DNA from: Candidatus Cryptobacteroides choladohippi
Lineage (GTDB): Bacteria; Bacteroidota; Bacteroidia; Bacteroidales; UBA932
Direction: 5' to 3'
Assembly (NCBI GenBank): GCA_018065985.1
Contig: JAGHSF010000027.1
Location: 59,422-123,421 of the forward strand
Length of the DNA: 64,000 nt
The position numbers and the translations under genes are program-made. Below are positions 8,363 to 63,654 of this stretch, in pieces; the first letter of the stretch is position 1; each line of letters begins with the position of its first letter. The notes below the pieces were generated by a model. The model ran no database searches and was not told where the DNA came from. It worked only from the letters and a program-made list of their open reading frames with translations.

Positions 8363-9533
8363 GTTTTTTACCTTCGGCCACAAGAATGTGGGTGGGGGAC
8401 TGGAACCGCTTGCCGCTCAAGGTTACGGTGCCCATGGGGCCGTCTTTGTAGCGTTGCAGGAGTTCCACAAGTTTCTCGAAAGTCTGCTGGCTGAATCCGC
8501 AGCCTTCCAGCATGCGCCACAGAACATAGCGCCAGTGCTTGAGTTCCAGCAGCCTGAGCACCTGGATTGTGCCTTCGGCGGCATCCAATATGCCTTTGCC
8601 GAGGGCTTCCTGATAGTAGTCTTCGGCAATGTCGTCCACCTGGGCAAAGCGCTGCATGTCGGCGCCGATTGTCTGGATGAAGCTCGGATTTATCTCCTTG
8701 AAAAGGGGAAACACGCAGTTGCGTATCCTGTTCCGCTTGTATTCGTTTTCTGCGTTGGTCCTGTCTTCATGCCACTGCAGTCCATGCGCCGTCATCCACC
8801 GGAATATCTCCGCCCTGCTGGTGCCCAGCAGGGGTCGTAAGAGCTTGATATTGTGTCCGGTAGCGGCTTGCCCGCCAAAACTTCCGCTTCGCTCCATCCC
8901 TCCCACTGACTCCGTCAGCGGGCCCCTCCCCCTGACGCGTCCGGGGGTGGACACGGTTTTGCCTGGGCAAGCGCTGCCGGATCCCTCCAAACCTCCCTGC
9001 CCTTCGGAACCCTGCTCGCTAGCGGTCTGCGACCGAAGGGAGCCGGGGGGCGTTATGGGGGCAGAGCCCCCATCAAAAAGTGCCAACGGTTTTGGCGGGC
9101 AAGCCGCTGCCGGCAAAGGCAAAACCGATTCACGCGCCATGCCCCGCGCGCCTTTGGTGCCGGTTCCCCGGAGCAGATTCAGCATCAGGGTCTCGGCATT
9201 GTCGTTGGCATTATGCGCCGTTGCCAGGGCATCGAAGCCGTGAGCCGTGCAGAGTTCTGCGAACCATGCGTAGCGGAGCTCCCGGGCCGCCATTTCGATG
9301 GAGACGCCGTTGCGCGCGGCGTATTCCTTTGTGTCAAAGCGTTTTACGAAGCAGGCTAGGCCTCGCTCGCCGCACCATTCCCGCACCAGTTTCTCGTCGG
9401 AATCCGACTCGTCTCCACGCAGCCCGAAATTGCAGTGGGCAACAGCAAACGAGGCCCCGGGGAATAGTTCCGGAGCCTTGTTCGCGAGATACATAGAGTC
9501 GATCCCGCCGCTGACTGCGAGCAGGATGCGCAT
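8322..9533 (-). CDS. tilS: tRNA(Ile)-lysidine synthase with an in-frame repeat insertion
   Basis: TilS uses ATP and lysine to make lysidine at C34 of tRNA-Ile(CAU), an essential step. The PP-loop SGGIDS is at residues 8-13, followed by HCNFGLRGDES, ELRYAWF and TAHNANDNAETLMLNLLRGTG. The conserved LLRPLLGTSRAEI resumes only after an extra low-complexity stretch of about 86 residues (about 141-226; Pro/Gly/Ser-rich). Related enzymes have a short loop there. The extra DNA is a 257-bp element with 25-bp terminal inverted repeats (8857-8881 and 9089-9113), read through in frame. The start abuts the DUF3078 stop codon, so this is the last gene of a proS-DUF3078-tilS operon. The insertion probably forms a flexible surface loop. 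Confidence 0.9.
   Translation of the reverse strand: MRILLAVSGGIDSMYLANKAPELFPGASFAVAHCNFGLRGDESDSDEKLVREWCGERGLACFVKRFDTKEYAARNGVSIEMAARELRYAWFAELCTAHGFDALATAHNANDNAETLMLNLLRGTGTKGARGMARESVLPLPAAACPPKPLALFDGGSAPITPPGSLRSQTASEQGSEGQGGLEGSGSACPGKTVSTPGRVRGRGPLTESVGGMERSGSFGGQAATGHNIKLLRPLLGTSRAEIFRWMTAHGLQWHEDRTNAENEYKRNRIRNCVFPLFKEINPSFIQTIGADMQRFAQVDDIAEDYYQEALGKGILDAAEGTIQVLRLLELKHWRYVLWRMLEGCGFSQQTFEKLVELLQRYKDGPMGTVTLSGKRFQSPTHILVAEGKKLRIASSPDPGCDR
8857..9113. mobile_element. MITE-like element with 25-bp terminal inverted repeats, inserted in tilS
   Basis: Positions 8857-8881 and 9089-9113 are reverse complements at 24 of 25 bases (CCGGyAGCGGCTTGCCCGCC then AAAAC). A degenerate third copy is internal at 8955-8980. 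Inside lie further palindromes: GACTCCGTCAGCGGG near 8908-8922, CTTCGG...CCGAAGG around 9002-9039, and a perfect 8-bp hairpin ATGGGGGC-AGA-GCCCCCAT around 9055-9073. The 21-nt block at 8983-9003 recurs exactly at 18411-18431, and the block at 9043-9082 recurs near 38183-38223. There is no transposase gene, and no target duplication is obvious. It is translated in frame on the minus strand without a stop. Confidence 0.75.
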
Positions 9534-17894: not shown

Positions 17895-18590
17895 ATGCTG
17901 CTCACGACGGCATATTTCCCACCAATAGAGTACTTCTCCATCCTGGCGAGGTACTCTGTCGTTTATCTTGAGGCGCACGAGAAGTACCGCAAGCAGAGCT
18001 GGCGCAACCGCTGCCGCATCCTGACGGCAAACGGGCCTATGGACCTGAACTTCCCCATTGTGCACGATGGTGCCGGCATGATCAAGGATATCAGGGTCGA
18101 CTGGAGCACGCCGTGGCTGCACAAGACGGAGTACGCCATCGACTCGGCGTATTACAGCTCTCCCTTCTTCGAATACTACCGCGACGAGCTTTTCGGCATT
18201 CTGGATTCCCATCCAGAGACGCTCTGGGAGCTGAACCTAGGAATCATAGATTTCTTCTGCCGCAAGATCGGCATCTGCCCGCAGATCCGCGAGACTGCCG
18301 AGTACGTTGCCCCCAGGGGGACAGTGACCGTGGCTGGCAGCCCGGCAGGTCTGGCTCCGGGTCAACTTCGCACTTCGTGCTCATCCCACCGCTGCGCTCC
18401 GCTTGCGGTCCCCTCCAAACCTCCCTGCCCTGCGGACTTCCGCTATTCCATACATCCCAAGATTCCTAGCACCTATCAAGCCGAGCCGTACTGGCAGGTA
18501 TTCAGGGAAAAGTTCGGCTTCGTGGATGGCCTGAGCATCATGGATCTTCTTTTCAATGAAGGCCCCGAGAGTCTTTGCTATCTGAAATAG
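17895..18590 (+). CDS. WbqC-like family protein with an in-frame repeat insertion
   Basis: A 231-residue member of the WbqC-like family, often found near surface polysaccharide or lipid genes; its biochemical role is not settled. Conserved parts are LLTTAYFPPIEYFSIL at the N terminus, then DLNFPIVH and WLHKTEYAIDSAYYSSPFFEYY, and the C-terminal block YSIHPKIPS, YWQVFREKFGFVDGLSIMDL and LFNEGPESL. Between them, residues about 149-181 are Pro/Cys/Ser-rich (HRCAPLAVPSKPPCPA) and encoded by a sequence related to the element in tilS. Relatives lack such a loop. It is last in the lipid A operon. Confidence 0.8.
   Translation: MLLTTAYFPPIEYFSILARYSVVYLEAHEKYRKQSWRNRCRILTANGPMDLNFPIVHDGAGMIKDIRVDWSTPWLHKTEYAIDSAYYSSPFFEYYRDELFGILDSHPETLWELNLGIIDFFCRKIGICPQIRETAEYVAPRGTVTVAGSPAGLAPGQLRTSCSSHRCAPLAVPSKPPCPADFRYSIHPKIPSTYQAEPYWQVFREKFGFVDGLSIMDLLFNEGPESLCYLK
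18341..18437. mobile_element. Partial copy of the tilS-type palindromic element, inside the wbqC-like gene
   Basis: The 21 bases at 18411-18431 are identical to 8983-9003. The preceding stretch (AACTTCGCACTTCGTGC, ATCCCACC) aligns loosely with 8878-8906, and CCCGGCAG at 18341 resembles the terminal repeat. The host gene reads this strand, whereas tilS reads the opposite one, yet both remain open. A GCTGCGCTCCGCTTGCGGT palindromic part is present. Confidence 0.6.
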
Positions 18591-31565: not shown

Positions 31566-32855
31566 ATGCCGCTGATAGGGGAGTTGCTGTCCGATGCGCT
31601 TAGAGGCGCGGTCTTCGTCACCGGCCTGGTGGTCGTGATGATGATGATGATCGAATCGTTCAACATCTCCACCAGCGGCAAGGTTTTCGGGGGCCTGCGC
31701 GGCAGCAGGGCAGGACAGGTGCTGCTTTCTGCCTTCCTGGGAAGCATCCCGGGATGCATGGGCGGATTCGCATCAGTCTCCCTTTATACACATGGAATGA
31801 TCAGCTTCGGCGCACTGGTAGCAATGATGATTGCTTCCAGCGGCGACGAAGCTTTTGTCATGCTCGCCATGATTCCCGATAAGGCATGGTGGATTTTCCT
31901 TCTGCTGTTTGTCGTGGCGGTCTGCACCGGTTTTCTGGTGGACGCCCTTCGCGTGCGCAGCGGACATCAGCTTGACGCAGCTACCTGCGCCGACGGTCTC
32001 GAGATCCACTCCGAGGACGAGCATCATCACGCTCACAGGCATGAGAGCAAGCAGCCTGACGGGCCTCGCCCGGACATGGAATCTGTCTCTTGCAATGCAG
32101 CCGATGCTCCCAGGCCGGCCCGTCACTTCAGCTGGAAGCGCCTTGTCATGTTCCTCGGCGTCGCAGCTTTCATAGCCGCCCTTGCCTCCGGCCTTCTGGA
32201 ACATGAGCACGAGCACGGAGATGCTGAAGCTGCGGAACTCGTCATCTGCGATGACCATGATTCTGAGGCCCATGAATGCAGGGCTGCAGCTCACGGTTCC
32301 GGGACTCACGAATGCGGGACTGGAAGCCATTGGGGCCATGAATGTGAGGTGGAATCTCACGGCGCGGCGCACCACGGTGGAATCAATCTTCTCAGCGAGG
32401 ACTGGATGAATATCATGTTCGCCGTGTTGAGCCTGGTTGTACTGTGTGTGATTGTCTGGGGTTCTGACCACTTTGTGAACGAGCACCTCTGGCATCACGT
32501 GGTATGCCGGCATCTCCCCAGGATATTCGCCTGGACTTTCGGGGTGCTGATCGTCATCGGGCTTCTTACCGAGGTCTTTGATGTTGCCGGCTGGATCAGC
32601 AGCAACACCCTGCTGATGATTCTCCTCGCAACTGCCATCGGAATCATCCCGGAGTCCGGCCCGCATCTTATCTTTGTCACGCTGTATGCGACGGGTGTCG
32701 TGCCGCTGCCGGTCATCCTGGCCTCCTGCATCAGTCAGGACGGACACGCCTCACTTCCCCTCCTGGCCGAGAGCAAGCGTGACTTCCTGAAGGCCAAGGC
32801 CATCAACTGCGCAGTCGCCCTTCTGGTCGGCCTCGCCGCCTGGCTGCTGATGTAG
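31566..32855 (+). CDS. Putative ten-TM manganese/heavy-metal exporter with His-rich loop (ArsP_2-like)
   Basis: A 429-residue membrane protein resembling the putative 10TM heavy-metal exporter / manganese transporter family. Two related halves carry EGLLSAFLGSIPGCMGGFASVSLY-like and AIGIIPESGPHLIFVTLYATG motifs (start of each: IPGCMGGF; IPESGPH). Between them lies an unusually long His/Cys/Asp/Glu-rich loop (about 145-280, with EDEHHHAHRHE, EHEHEHGDAE, HECRAAAHGSGTHECG) that could bind metal ions. It starts 2 nt after infB and is probably co-transcribed. A tandem array derived from its last codons follows the stop. The metal is inferred from family only. Confidence 0.75.
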   Translation: MPLIGELLSDALRGAVFVTGLVVVMMMMIESFNISTSGKVFGGLRGSRAGQVLLSAFLGSIPGCMGGFASVSLYTHGMISFGALVAMMIASSGDEAFVMLAMIPDKAWWIFLLLFVVAVCTGFLVDALRVRSGHQLDAATCADGLEIHSEDEHHHAHRHESKQPDGPRPDMESVSCNAADAPRPARHFSWKRLVMFLGVAAFIAALASGLLEHEHEHGDAEAAELVICDDHDSEAHECRAAAHGSGTHECGTGSHWGHECEVESHGAAHHGGINLLSEDWMNIMFAVLSLVVLCVIVWGSDHFVNEHLWHHVVCRHLPRIFAWTFGVLIVIGLLTEVFDVAGWISSNTLLMILLATAIGIIPESGPHLIFVTLYATGVVPLPVILASCISQDGHASLPLLAESKRDFLKAKAINCAVALLVGLAAWLLM

Positions 32856-33035
32856 GTTCGCCTCCTGGCTGCTTGTTTAGGTTCGCTTCCTGGCTGCTTG
32901 TTTAGGTTCGCCTCCTGGCTGCAGGTTTAGGTTCACCGCCTGGCTGCTGATGTAGTCCGCTCTTTTTTTGTGGGTTGCTGATGTAGCCCGCTCTTCTTTG
33001 GGGGGCTGCTGATGTAGTCCGCTCTTCATTTATAG
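32831..33035 (+). repeat. Tandem array seeded by the transporter gene's 3' end
   Basis: The last 25 bases of the coding sequence (ending GCTGCTGATGTAG) are followed by four degenerate 25-bp copies (32856-32880, 32881-32905, 32906-32930, 32931-32955), each ending in TTTAG or TGTAG. Two 31-bp copies come next (32956-32986, 32987-33017; TCCGCTCTT...GCTGCTGATGTAG) and then a partial copy (33018-33035). Every copy repeats the stop-codon region. No gene is present; the remaining bases to 33098 show nothing I recognise. Confidence 0.85.
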
Positions 33036-33098: not shown

Positions 33099-33207
33099 GT
33101 GCCCAATCCCTTTTTCTTGGGGGGCTTGGGCATGATCCCATTTGAATGAGGCGTGCCAGTTAATGAGTGCCGTTCCCAATCCCCAAATTAATTCTGGATT
33201 GGGCATG
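33099..33207 (+). repeat. REP-like hairpin pair, unit A (upstream of RAYT)
   Basis: Two hairpins, 33099-33134 and 33172-33207, each 36 nt, separated by a 37-nt spacer. Arms of hairpin 1: GTGCCCAATCCC and GGGCTTGGGCAT. Arms of hairpin 2: GTTCCCAATCC and GGATTGGGCAT. Loops and spacer have no similarity to the other units. The unit ends directly before the transposase gene region. Confidence 0.85.
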
Positions 33208-33230
33208 AAGGATGGTAAAATTTCATATCT

Positions 33231-33238
33231 TTACCGAA
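33231..33238 (+). promoter_or_regulatory. Possible -7 box of the RAYT gene
   Basis: The sequence here, TATCTTTA in CATATCTTTACCG, matches TAnnTTTG in all but the last base. A transcript starting just after it would exclude the ATG at 33212 and leave a short leader with GAGGGGAAG before the ATG at 33263. The exact position may be off by a base or two. Confidence 0.35.
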
Positions 33239-33262
33239 GAATTATCGAGGGGAAGATTGACT

Positions 33263-34162
33263 ATGAATTACTTTGATGACGATTCAGAACCGATAAGGTT
33301 CTTTCACTTGTGTACAGACGGGGGCTCCAATGGAATAGTCCATACCTGTGACGAAGACTATAGGATGGCTATACGGATCAGTGCGATCCGTTCTTACTTC
33401 CATGGCGTGACGATTCTATGTTACTGTCACATGTCTACACATTCGCATTTTGTGGTCTGCTGCAGAAGCAGAGAGATTGCAAAGACTTTTATCAACGGTT
33501 TCAAACAGGATTATGGAAGGTATTCCTATAATGCGCACCGGACGCTTCAGACCTACCTTGGTATAGAATCGGACCCGATAGAAATATACGATTCATTCCA
33601 GTTGAAACGATGCATATCGTATGTTCTGTTGAACCCGGTCGTGCCCAAAATAGTGATACACCCGGAAGAATATCGATGGTCGTCCTTTAACGCGTATTTC
33701 AATGCAGACAGGTCAACTGAAGGATTCCGTTCTGTAAAGTCGATGACGTTCAGGGAAATCAGAGAGATATTTCGTACTCATAAGGACATCAGGAACTCGG
33801 GTATTATCGTTGATTGTAACCGGGACATCGTCATGAAGTCCATTGTGAGCTATAAACTGGTTGAGGACTTATTCGGCAGCAGGACAGAATTTTACAAATC
33901 ATTAGCTATTACCGACAGCATAAAGGAGGAGTGTAAATATCATCCTCAGATTGTGAAGTTCAATGACAACGAACTGTTGGCCGAGGCAATTCAGCTTGCG
34001 CAGAAGAAATATGGTATCAAGGATATACAGTTCCTTACCCATGAGCAGAAACTGTCTTTATTGCTGCCTTTGAAGCGCAAAACTTCGTCAACATCACTTA
34101 GAATATCAAAAGTCCTTAGACTTGCCCCGTCTGAAGTTGGTGCATATCTGTTGAAGAAGTGA
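33263..34162 (+). CDS. REP-associated tyrosine transposase (RAYT, Y1/HUH family)
   Basis: About 299 residues. RFFHLCTDGG matches the family's N-terminal strand. The HUH metal motif is His60-Ser-His62 in CHMSTHSHFVV. The helix with the catalytic tyrosine is SYVLLNPV (Tyr120, 58 residues after the HUH). EYRWSSFNAY is the usual W-S-S block. RAYTs nick and join single-stranded REP hairpins. The C-terminal third (LTHEQKLSLLLPL and LRISKVLRLAPSEVGAYL) looks like a helix-turn-helix. Starting at 33263 fits the family length better than 33212. The gene is AT-richer than its neighbours and sits exactly between two hairpin units, as expected of an autonomous REP-RAYT locus. A central Ser in HUH is unusual. 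Confidence 0.85.
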   Translation: MNYFDDDSEPIRFFHLCTDGGSNGIVHTCDEDYRMAIRISAIRSYFHGVTILCYCHMSTHSHFVVCCRSREIAKTFINGFKQDYGRYSYNAHRTLQTYLGIESDPIEIYDSFQLKRCISYVLLNPVVPKIVIHPEEYRWSSFNAYFNADRSTEGFRSVKSMTFREIREIFRTHKDIRNSGIIVDCNRDIVMKSIVSYKLVEDLFGSRTEFYKSLAITDSIKEECKYHPQIVKFNDNELLAEAIQLAQKKYGIKDIQFLTHEQKLSLLLPLKRKTSSTSLRISKVLRLAPSEVGAYLLKK

Positions 34163-34181
34163 CTTGCAGAGAGATACCTCC

Positions 34182-34290
34182 GTGCCTAATCCTGAATAGC
34201 CATAGGGGGTGGGCATGTTACACGGCATCGTGATGCTGCCTGTTGATAACAGTTGTGCCCAAGCCCTATCAGAATAGGGGCCTGGGCACA
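34182..34290 (+). repeat. REP-like hairpin pair, unit B (downstream of RAYT)
   Basis: Hairpins at 34182-34217 and 34255-34290, each 36 nt, with a 37-nt spacer. Hairpin 1 is degenerate (GTGCCTAATCC / GGGGTGGGCAT). Hairpin 2 is strong (TGTGCCCA...TGGGCACA, plus CCCTAT/ATAGGGG). The spacer contains a small extra stem CTGTT-GAT-AACAG. It starts 19 nt after the transposase stop and precedes the 3' end of the M28 gene. Confidence 0.85.
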
Positions 34291-38054: not shown

Positions 38055-38163
38055 GTGCCCAGTCCTAAGATTCATGCGGGATTGGGCACGGGTTTCGTTA
38101 ACTGACGTGCCATATTTCAATATGGTTGTGCCCAGTCCCCCTCGGAATTCGGGATTGGGCACA
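38055..38163 (+). repeat. REP-like hairpin pair, unit C
   Basis: Hairpins at 38055-38090 and 38128-38163, each 36 nt with a 37-nt spacer. This is the best-preserved copy: arms CCGTGCCCAGTCC / GGGATTGGGCACGG and TTGTGCCCAGTCCC / GGGATTGGGCACAA, with G-T wobbles only. The spacer carries a 6-7 bp hairpin CCATATT-TC-AATATGG. The unit lies between the convergent EF-hand and araD genes. Confidence 0.9.
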
Positions 38164-54373: not shown

Positions 54374-54820
54374 ATGAAAAAGAGTATCACAATTATTGCC
54401 ATTATTATGGCTGTCATGGTTTGTGCTGCATCCTATTACTGCAGTGCACGGAATGTTATTGTCACACTTCAGGATCTGCCTCAGCAGGCTCAGTCCTTCC
54501 TCGCCGCCCATTTCGATACTTCAGATATCTCTTCGATCGTGAAGGACGGAAACGAGTATGAGGTCCGTTTCGAAAACGGCACGGAGGTGGAGTTCAACCA
54601 TAAAGGACAATGGGAAAATATCGATTGCAAGCGTGAGCCCGTGCCTGCAAGCATAATCGCCCTCCTTCCGGAGCAGATTCCTTCGTATCTGAAGACAAAT
54701 TTCAAGAAAGCGTTCATCACCAAGCTTGGCAAGGAGCATTTCGGATATGACCTCGAACTGAGCAACGGCCTTGACCTCGAGTTCTCCTCAAATGGACGCC
54801 TGAAGAAGGTGGACGACTAA
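54374..54820 (+). CDS. PepSY-like (DUF2874) periplasmic protein
   Basis: About 148 residues with an N-terminal signal (ITIIAIIMAVMVCAA). Two tandem PepSY-like units are visible, each with helix-then-strand and the pattern LPQQAQSFLAAHFD ... YEVRFENGTEVEFNHKGQW, then LPEQIPSYLKTNFK ... YDLELSNGLDLEFSSNGRL. Such proteins are thought to inhibit proteases or sense the envelope. It is 70 nt after the fimbrial operon. Its last 50 coding bases recur 522 bp downstream as a remnant. Confidence 0.8.
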   Translation: MKKSITIIAIIMAVMVCAASYYCSARNVIVTLQDLPQQAQSFLAAHFDTSDISSIVKDGNEYEVRFENGTEVEFNHKGQWENIDCKREPVPASIIALLPEQIPSYLKTNFKKAFITKLGKEHFGYDLELSNGLDLEFSSNGRLKKVDD

Positions 54821-54932: not shown

Positions 54933-55041
54933 GTGCCCAATCCCCAATTCTCTTGAGGATTGGGAATGGCATAGTACCCTGGAAGGCGTTTTGCAGTGTG
55001 GTTGTATGCCTAATCCCCTCGCAAATCCGGGATTGGGCACG
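54933..55041 (+). repeat. REP-like hairpin pair, unit D
   Basis: Hairpins at 54933-54968 and 55006-55041, again 36 nt each with a 37-nt spacer. Arms: GTGCCCAATCC / GGATTGGGAA and ATGCCTAATCCC / GGGATTGGGCAC. It is inside the intergenic patch between the PepSY-like gene and its duplicated 3' end. No transposase is near. Confidence 0.87.
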
Positions 55042-55155: not shown

Positions 55156-55290
55156 TTAAAGTTGGTAGGAGAGATCGAATCTTCTGAAGGAGCTTTGCAG
55201 GGGAAGGGAATTGTTCGTTCCCTTTTGCACCTCAATATTCTGAAGAACCTTGAAGTTGTACTCGTAGTTGCTGGATAACGCCAGCCATGG
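55156..55290 (-). pseudogene. Possible gene remnant, unrecognised
   Basis: On the minus strand a stretch with natural-looking protein sequence (SSNYEYNFKVLQNIEVQK then TNNSLPLQSSFRRFDLSYQL) ends in TAA at 55156. It has no start and runs into the duplicated PepSY end. I do not recognise it. It may be the C terminus of a displaced gene. Confidence 0.3.
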
Positions 55291-55338
55291 CCTTCATCTC
55301 GAGTTCTTCTCAAATGGACGCCTGAAGAAGGTGGACGA
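55289..55338 (+). pseudogene. Remnant duplicate of the PepSY-like gene 3' end
   Basis: These 50 bases match 54767-54816 at 47 positions and encode the same ending, LEFFSNGRLKKVDD, but only this fragment exists. It is a direct repeat with the intact gene, separated by 472 bp that contains REP-like unit D. This suggests a former tandem PepSY-like gene that was deleted, or a local duplication. Confidence 0.7.
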
Positions 55339-55551: not shown

Positions 55552-55803
55552 CTATGCCTCTCGGATACGCTGATCTTTAAGACCGGACAGCATTGCTACC
55601 ATTTCACAAATTATGGATTTGCGTTCTTTGAACATCTTGGCGTAACAACCTGCTGAACAATGTTCACCCCAAAGCCGAGGGTCCTTCGGCACAAGTGGAT
55701 AATCATGTCCCTGCAGCATTGCGGGGATATTTTTGTTGTATTCTGTGGTTAAAACAGGGCTAAGTAATACTACTTGATTTTTCGGATTATCAATATATAT
55801 CAT
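55552..55803 (-). CDS. Small hypothetical protein
   Basis: About 83 residues from the ATG at 55803 (MIYIDNPKNQVVLLSPVL). I recognise no family and there is no signal peptide. Two Cys residues (HCSAGCYAKMF) and a basic C terminus are present. It is AT-rich and isolated in a repeat-laden patch, so it may be a small accessory gene or a chance reading frame. Confidence 0.35.
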   Translation of the reverse strand: MIYIDNPKNQVVLLSPVLTTEYNKNIPAMLQGHDYPLVPKDPRLWGEHCSAGCYAKMFKERKSIICEMVAMLSGLKDQRIREA

Positions 55804-63620: not shown

Positions 63621-63654
63621 CTCAATAAAAATGCCCCCGCAATGCTGCAGGGGC
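63621..63654 (-). terminator. Terminator of the phosphatase gene
   Basis: On the minus strand GCCCCTGCA and TGCGGGGGC form a stem with one mismatch and a 4-nt loop, followed by ATTTTTATT. Confidence 0.75.

Follow-up and report, generated by a model that had tools for sequence, protein, structure and literature searches.

Twin-hairpin units around a RAYT-like transposase gene suggest a REPIN-RAYT-like system without a GTAG head in Bacteroidales

What links a transposase gene to the structured repeats that bracket it, and which of the two moves? The question is raised by a locus of Candidatus Cryptobacteroides choladohippi, contained in a stretch of 64,000 nucleotides (nt) referred to here as the window (assembly GCA_018065985.1, contig JAGHSF010000027.1, positions 59,422-123,421 of the forward strand). 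There, a gene resembling those of the REP-associated tyrosine transposases (RAYTs; REP, repetitive extragenic palindrome) is bracketed by two copies of a twin-hairpin unit, with five further copies scattered through the genome. We consider it likely that the enzyme recognises the hairpin arms as single-stranded DNA and acts in trans to move the unit, which would be a non-autonomous, REPIN-like element. The locus is best read as a REPIN-RAYT-like system, here GTAG-less, of a C-terminally extended RAYT clade that has multiplied within one Bacteroidales family.

The gene (33263..34162, plus strand) encodes 299 residues. Its ATG at 33263 stands 55 nt past the 5′ unit and its stop at 34162 lies 19 nt ahead of the 3′ unit; an alternative in-frame ATG is present at 33212. 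The original prediction, made from the letters of the sequence, had placed a RAYT gene with HSH and YVLLNP motifs between paired-hairpin units with these gaps, and its coordinates were reproduced. Each unit consists of two 33-nt hairpins with arms near TGCCCAATCC/GGATTGGGCA. All four units of the window are on the plus strand. The 5′ unit (33099..33207; hairpins 33100-33132 and 33173-33205) is defined by sequence, alignment and a covariance model, and the 3′ unit (34182..34290; hairpins 34183-34215 and 34256-34288) by these and by folding. Two dispersed units, at 38055..38163 (hairpins 38056-38088 and 38129-38161) and 54933..55041 (hairpins 54934-54966 and 55007-55039), are defined by sequence, folding and the covariance model. 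In all four, the first arms of the two hairpins are 73 nt apart, start to start (beginning at 33100, 34183, 38056 and 54934). The DNA folding z-scores are -1.4 for the 5′ unit, -3.2 for the 3′ unit, and -5.7 and -4.8 for the units at 38055 and 54933. Neither a GTAG nor a GTGG head occurs in the 6 nt 5′ of any of the eight hairpin feet in these four units, and GGGGWSAS was not found on either strand of them.

The covariance model, built from the four window units, recovered three extra copies in the same genome, on contigs C30, C45 and C65 (E 3e-11, 1e-10 and 3e-9). Because the model finds copies outside its building set, the window units exceed chance. The second hairpin is truncated in the C30 copy, and the further matches comprise reverse-strand echoes, a weak match on C12 that is another RAYT’s unit, and, where contig C34 ends, half a unit. 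The window copies and these three make seven in total, in line with the earlier proposal that extra units exist beyond the brackets. A search of 61 genomes of the genus (own included), run with stricter filters than the own-genome search, returned good matches in the own genome only; the other 60 yielded one weak partial match (E 6.5e-4), and the nearest RAYT found in them is 45% identical to the window protein. The two outcomes that would have refuted the original prediction did not occur: the units exist outside the four places of the window, and they are not equally abundant in other genomes. BLAST finds two copies of the window unit where the model finds seven; BLAST-based copy numbers are therefore lower bounds.

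The window protein is best read as a RAYT-like HUH/Y1 transposase of the extended clade. The H, H, Y and N of the HUH pair and the Y---N motif are present in 83/83 aligned homologues; here they lie in THSH (H-S-H codons 33440..33448, plus strand) and in YVLLNP, whose predicted catalytic tyrosine is encoded at 33620..33622 on the same strand. The window protein has S at the U position, as do 4/83 aligned homologues, outside the residues L, V, I, F, Y and M listed for RAYT/TnpAREP in PMC6006769. Besides the open reading frame (ORF), the gene call draws on a match to NCBIfam REP_Tyr_transpos below cut-off and on the predicted fold. The protein misses the curated cut-offs of Pfam Y1_Tnp (14.6 bits versus 23) and of NCBIfam NF047646 (20.5 versus 80); judged by E-value and not by curated cut-off, 40/45 aligned members match NF047646 (E<=0.001) and 32/45 match Y1_Tnp (E<=0.01). 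The predicted fold is nearest to 4er8, the structure of the E. coli RAYT in complex with its REP hairpin, at 11% identity in the structural alignment, which agrees with the RAYT identity originally proposed; IS608-type transposases are the second-best structural matches. The C-terminus is helical in the structure model, with helix-turn-helix (HTH) matches in single members and a weak CENP-B HTH match (E 0.62).

Homologues at E<=1e-10, often several per genome, are present in 60/149 genomes of the family and 48/61 of the genus, own included in both. An order-wide draw matched the profile in 30/149 genomes, two of them full-length (G000 and G022, both of the window’s genus), and the remaining 28 matches reach no further than profile position 175 of 290. 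The extended form is therefore seen in this family only, in a draw that holds few genomes per family. Clade members by name are Candidatus Merdivivens pullistercoris, Candidatus Merdivivens pullicola and Muribaculum sp. An289, with four Bacteroidales metagenome-assembled genomes (26-33%) as more distant members; NCBI assigns Merdivivens to the Muribaculaceae.

Several related RAYTs lie beside hairpins of their own. The nearest paralogue found in the own genome (L002, 45% identity) is accompanied on the 3′ side by a different twin hairpin, whose two starts are 82 nt apart. A second (L003, 24% identity) has TGCACATATAC hairpins on both sides, and a fourth RAYT, on C48 (L252), adjoins an array of TGACGCACG hairpins upstream only. 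Paralogue units in this genome include TGCACATATAC and GTGTGCGC types. Units of the L003 type are also arrayed near contig ends, about 330-410 nt start to start (L203 on C19, 536-1413; L202 on C14, 1001-1544), and a RAYT C-terminal fragment lies at C70:11272-11466 of the own genome, outside the window. In another species, a RAYT 31% identical to the window protein (L248) is bracketed by CGTGTTTAGTGGT twin hairpins at a spacing of 72 nt. A RAYT that is 45% identical (L247) has a pair of hairpins 3′ of it, spaced by 82 nt. Hairpins are present at L249, L250 and L251 with no clear matching pair on both sides, and L254 shows a shared arm core with no clean pair.

A flank survey covered 81 of the 83 loci, those with at least 250 nt on both sides. 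A 10-nt hairpin arm (at most one mismatch) is common to both flanks at 17/81 loci, the window included; 40 mismatched pairings gave a mean of 0.15 and a maximum of 1. Direct similarity between the 5′ and 3′ flanks exceeds the 99th percentile of 1500 mismatched pairs at 41/81 loci (43 in either orientation), and the window locus exceeds it in the inverted comparison only (28 versus 26). Hairpins occur in 37/81 upstream and 58/81 downstream flanks, with 7-16 and 6-15 in five shuffles; the downstream ones may include terminators. Flank sequence is common to 15/15 locus pairs whose proteins are at least 80% identical, a figure that in part is plain common descent, and to 1/2890 pairs below 40%.

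The units are also largely specific to their own genomes. Searching 13 units in 14 genomes, with overlaps merged and brackets counted, gave a nearly diagonal table of copy numbers, each unit being found at 2-16 places of its own genome. The L050 unit reaches 16 places, many of them arrays beside its gene, and the L059 unit is matched mostly through its inner hairpin. Off-diagonal matches involve related arms (L074 type in G015 and G134, L080 type in G134) or the sister genomes G031 and G049, where L120-unit matches in G049 are the brackets of the orthologous L124. Two genomes with no RAYT at E<=1e-10 (G072 and G107) gave no unit matches.

The stems of related units covary. Among twelve copies in G134 (one a bracket, two with a common outer flank), the arms are nearly constant and the loops vary. 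In 15 non-overlapping L074/L080-type copies, 12/29 stem pairs changed on both sides versus 6.8 in shuffles, double changes number 19 versus 8.3, and 89.4% of cells pair versus 37-49% with slid partners. In four unit families, pairwise identity falls to about 0.2-0.5 just beyond the hairpin feet; G015 is the exception, its stem continuing outward through conserved outer bases (0.74 left, 0.54 right). No conserved tetranucleotide was found outside the feet in three of the four families; the G134 arms contain GTAG inside the stem. One L074-type hairpin forms a tandem array with a 52-nt period (L186, G134:C38), so single hairpins are able to chain. As for placement, 25 of 35 units have under 40 nt in common with predicted ORFs, versus a mean of 6.6 and a maximum of 13 at random, with crude ORF calling. 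The genes on either side of the units vary in orientation, and in G134 three of these gene pairs are divergent.

Related loci suggest that units turn over while the gene stays. At three orthologous loci, the proteins of L060 and L057 are 92% and 80% identical to that of L059. A long palindromic unit lies 5′ of the gene in L060 and L057 and none in L059, which reads TTCAGGCCTGAA at that position, resembling the joined two tips of the outer palindrome. This is a single case, and its unit type, a long outer palindrome with an inner hairpin, differs from the window type. Units at two places of one genome (L080 and L191) are 97.5% identical. The orthologous L101 and L105 loci differ by about 420 nt on the 5′ side of the RAYT, and their homology restarts where the 5′ unit has its outer foot. 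Among 13 relative pairs compared over a wider neighbourhood, drawn from pairs with similar near flanks, DNA beyond the gene is common on at least one side in 12 and on both sides in seven; the L128/L099 pair has none in common. For pairs with proteins at least 80% identical (seven of the 15 such pairs), both sides are common in 6/7 and one side in 1/7. No orthologous locus of the window gene was found for this neighbourhood comparison. The gene appears to be mostly inherited in place, and the dispersed entity is the unit, not the bracketed gene.

From these data, the mechanism would be as follows. The protein would bind the hairpin arms of its own unit as single-stranded DNA, for example at a replication fork, nick near a hairpin foot and then transfer the unit strand, so that the unit would be moved in trans as a REPIN-like non-autonomous element. 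We infer binding, cleavage, strand transfer and movement by the window protein, with the same chemistry as known RAYTs, because of its fold, active-site residues and cognate repeats; PMC8266576 reports such chemistry on single-stranded hairpins for E. coli and two other systems. As there is no GTAG head, the arm sequence is the likely specificity determinant. Each enzyme probably recognises only its own repeat family, since the window unit recurs in its own genome and not convincingly in 60 relatives, and several relatives adjoin quite different twin hairpins; each likely moves that family. With the gene mostly inherited in place and paralogues carrying different arms, each gene-repeat pair likely coevolves as a separate line. 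A broader proposal, which we advance tentatively and with somewhat more doubt than confidence, is that an extended RAYT radiation in one Bacteroidales family reads the twin-hairpin stem and not a fixed GTAG head. Several non-cross-reacting pairs, four RAYTs and four hairpins in this genome, would then exist side by side as orthogonal codes for single-stranded hairpin transposition.

Several observations weigh against unit movement by the RAYT. Copy numbers are low, and the L101, L120 and L122 units were found only as two brackets each. Under the strict test, 64/81 loci lack arms common to both flanks. At the window itself, the 5′ unit folds weakly, the second hairpin is partly decayed across the seven copies, and the brackets score 23 in direct alignment versus 27 at the 99th percentile of unrelated flanks. 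The covariation and presence/absence results come from related units and not from the window family, and one of the five covariation measures, further pair types, falls within shuffles (reached by 230/500). The L059 state may be an empty site or an excision scar, with the direction either way. L093-type units stand at two places of G031, a genome that may or may not hold a matching RAYT. The link between unit and RAYT could also arise without catalysis, for example via regulation.

Three other explanations bear on the same evidence. The RAYT may have been domesticated, with the units serving a host task such as one at the replication fork or in repair and with little ongoing transposition. Close orthologues mostly hold their place, copy numbers are low, and loops have diverged around nearly constant arms, all of which would fit. 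However, the 97.5% identical units of L080 and L191 and the gain or loss of a unit between related species suggest turnover, and we regard domestication as unlikely.

The original prediction had favoured an autonomous element of about 1.2 kb, and in its fuller form this explanation holds that the bracketed gene is an insertion sequence of IS200/IS605 type that transposes whole, leaving solo units as remnants. IS200/IS605 elements employ HUH/Y1 chemistry with subterminal hairpins and are mobile and multicopy, with a transposase of about 150 residues. The window system resembles them in its hairpins and predicted HUH/Y1 chemistry; unlike them, its enzyme is about twice as long, its gene is mostly stationary and its units turn over alone. 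The position of the gene between repeated ends, the direct flank similarity at 41/81 loci and the IS608-type structural matches speak for such an element. However, the own genome holds no close second copy of the gene, its nearest paralogue being only 45% identical, and the window brackets have diverged (57/109 positions identical, ungapped). Units occur alone, with homology largely stopping at the hairpin feet, and close relatives share the neighbouring DNA, on both outer sides in six of seven close pairs. An autonomous element is accordingly very unlikely, and this part of the prediction is not supported. Least probable of all is a host role in regulation or at the RNA level, with the units acting as terminators, attenuators or mRNA stabilisers that happen to lie near RAYT genes, an explanation that fits their slight overlap with ORFs and the fact that the hairpins would form in RNA too, but not the varied gene orientations around them, the several unrelated units in one genome each beside another RAYT, or the lack of any Rfam match in the window.

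The preferred reading, a REPIN-like unit moved in trans by its RAYT, can be set beside known systems, as described in the papers cited here. RAYTs are flanked by inverted REPs (PMC2817692) and are vertically inherited single-copy genes (PMC8049555), and both REPtrons and TIRtrons are specific to their genes (PMC3733652). The Pseudomonas REPIN-RAYT system (PMC3116915) resembles the window in its two hairpin-forming ends, variable middle and fixed spacing (71 bp in GI REPINs versus 73 nt), and its REPINs resemble the units here in being mostly extragenic, showing compensatory changes and being tied to specific RAYTs. In contrast to those REPINs, the window units have no GTAG/GTGG head and units occupy 2-16 places, versus hundreds of copies, and the RAYT here has a C-terminal extension (PMC3116915). 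The two hairpins of a window unit, with their fixed spacing, may be an inverted or a direct pair, since the decay of the arms fits either orientation. The abundance usual for REPs, more than 100 copies per genome, is far from the seven copies of the window unit and the 2-16 places per unit. Strict REP membership was rejected on the missing GTAG/GTGG head and the far lower copy numbers.

The REPtrons/TnpAREP of E. coli, S. maltophilia and Marinomonas (PMC8266576) likewise have palindrome-bordered HUH/Y1 enzymes and cognate enzyme-repeat pairs, and the predicted fold here is 4er8-like. Unlike in those systems, structural-alignment identity is only 11%, the arms are wholly different from one lineage to the next and a GTAG guide is missing from the window family. 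TnpAY1 subclass 2.6, or RAYT group 5 (PMC6006769), is mostly from Bacteroidetes and shows flanking “atypical secondary structures” that recur at other places of the genome; its motifs NH[LIV]H and YIH[QN]NP and length of 179 differ from the THSH, YVLLNP and 299 residues of the window protein. TIRYT/TIRtrons, mostly of subclass 2.1, include RAYT-like enzymes whose C-terminal extensions are of HTH type; the repeats flanking them are moderately abundant, specific to a gene and in some cases self-complementary, with different repeats per gene in one genome (PMC3733652, PMC6006769). Some TIRtrons carry GGGGWSAS, though not every TIRYT does (PMC3733652, PMC6006769); the window units lack it, and each is a pair of hairpins whose stems are alike. 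Searches of literature titles and abstract openings listed no account of twin-hairpin repeats linked to RAYTs in Bacteroidales, most subscription papers and supplementary files being out of reach. The literature found on Bacteroidetes RAYTs gives a brief mention of the “atypical” structures beside them (PMC6006769).

On the recognition and spread of repeats by RAYTs, the work cited here concerns GTAG-headed systems. The many related enzymes with their own twin hairpins provide ready enzyme-substrate pairs for residue-base reading, related species that differ by one unit offer excision or insertion joints made in nature, and where a genome has several paralogues, their cross-reactivity can be compared in one background. 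REPIN-like sequence populations are also present in uncultured Bacteroidales.

Other repeats occur in the window. A 25-nt tandem repeat (TCGCCTCCTGGCTGCTTGTTTAGGT-like) runs from the 3′ end of a permease gene toward the RAYT unit (32833-32957). A 56-nt repeat (91%) flanks the fourth unit at 54761-54816 and 55283-55338 and looks like a duplicated small gene end. A 30-nt inverted repeat pair (90%) at 55709-55738 and 63623-63652 may be a different small repeat family, and 37-nt direct repeats at 8972-9008 and 18400-18436 are 86% identical and 9.4 kb apart.
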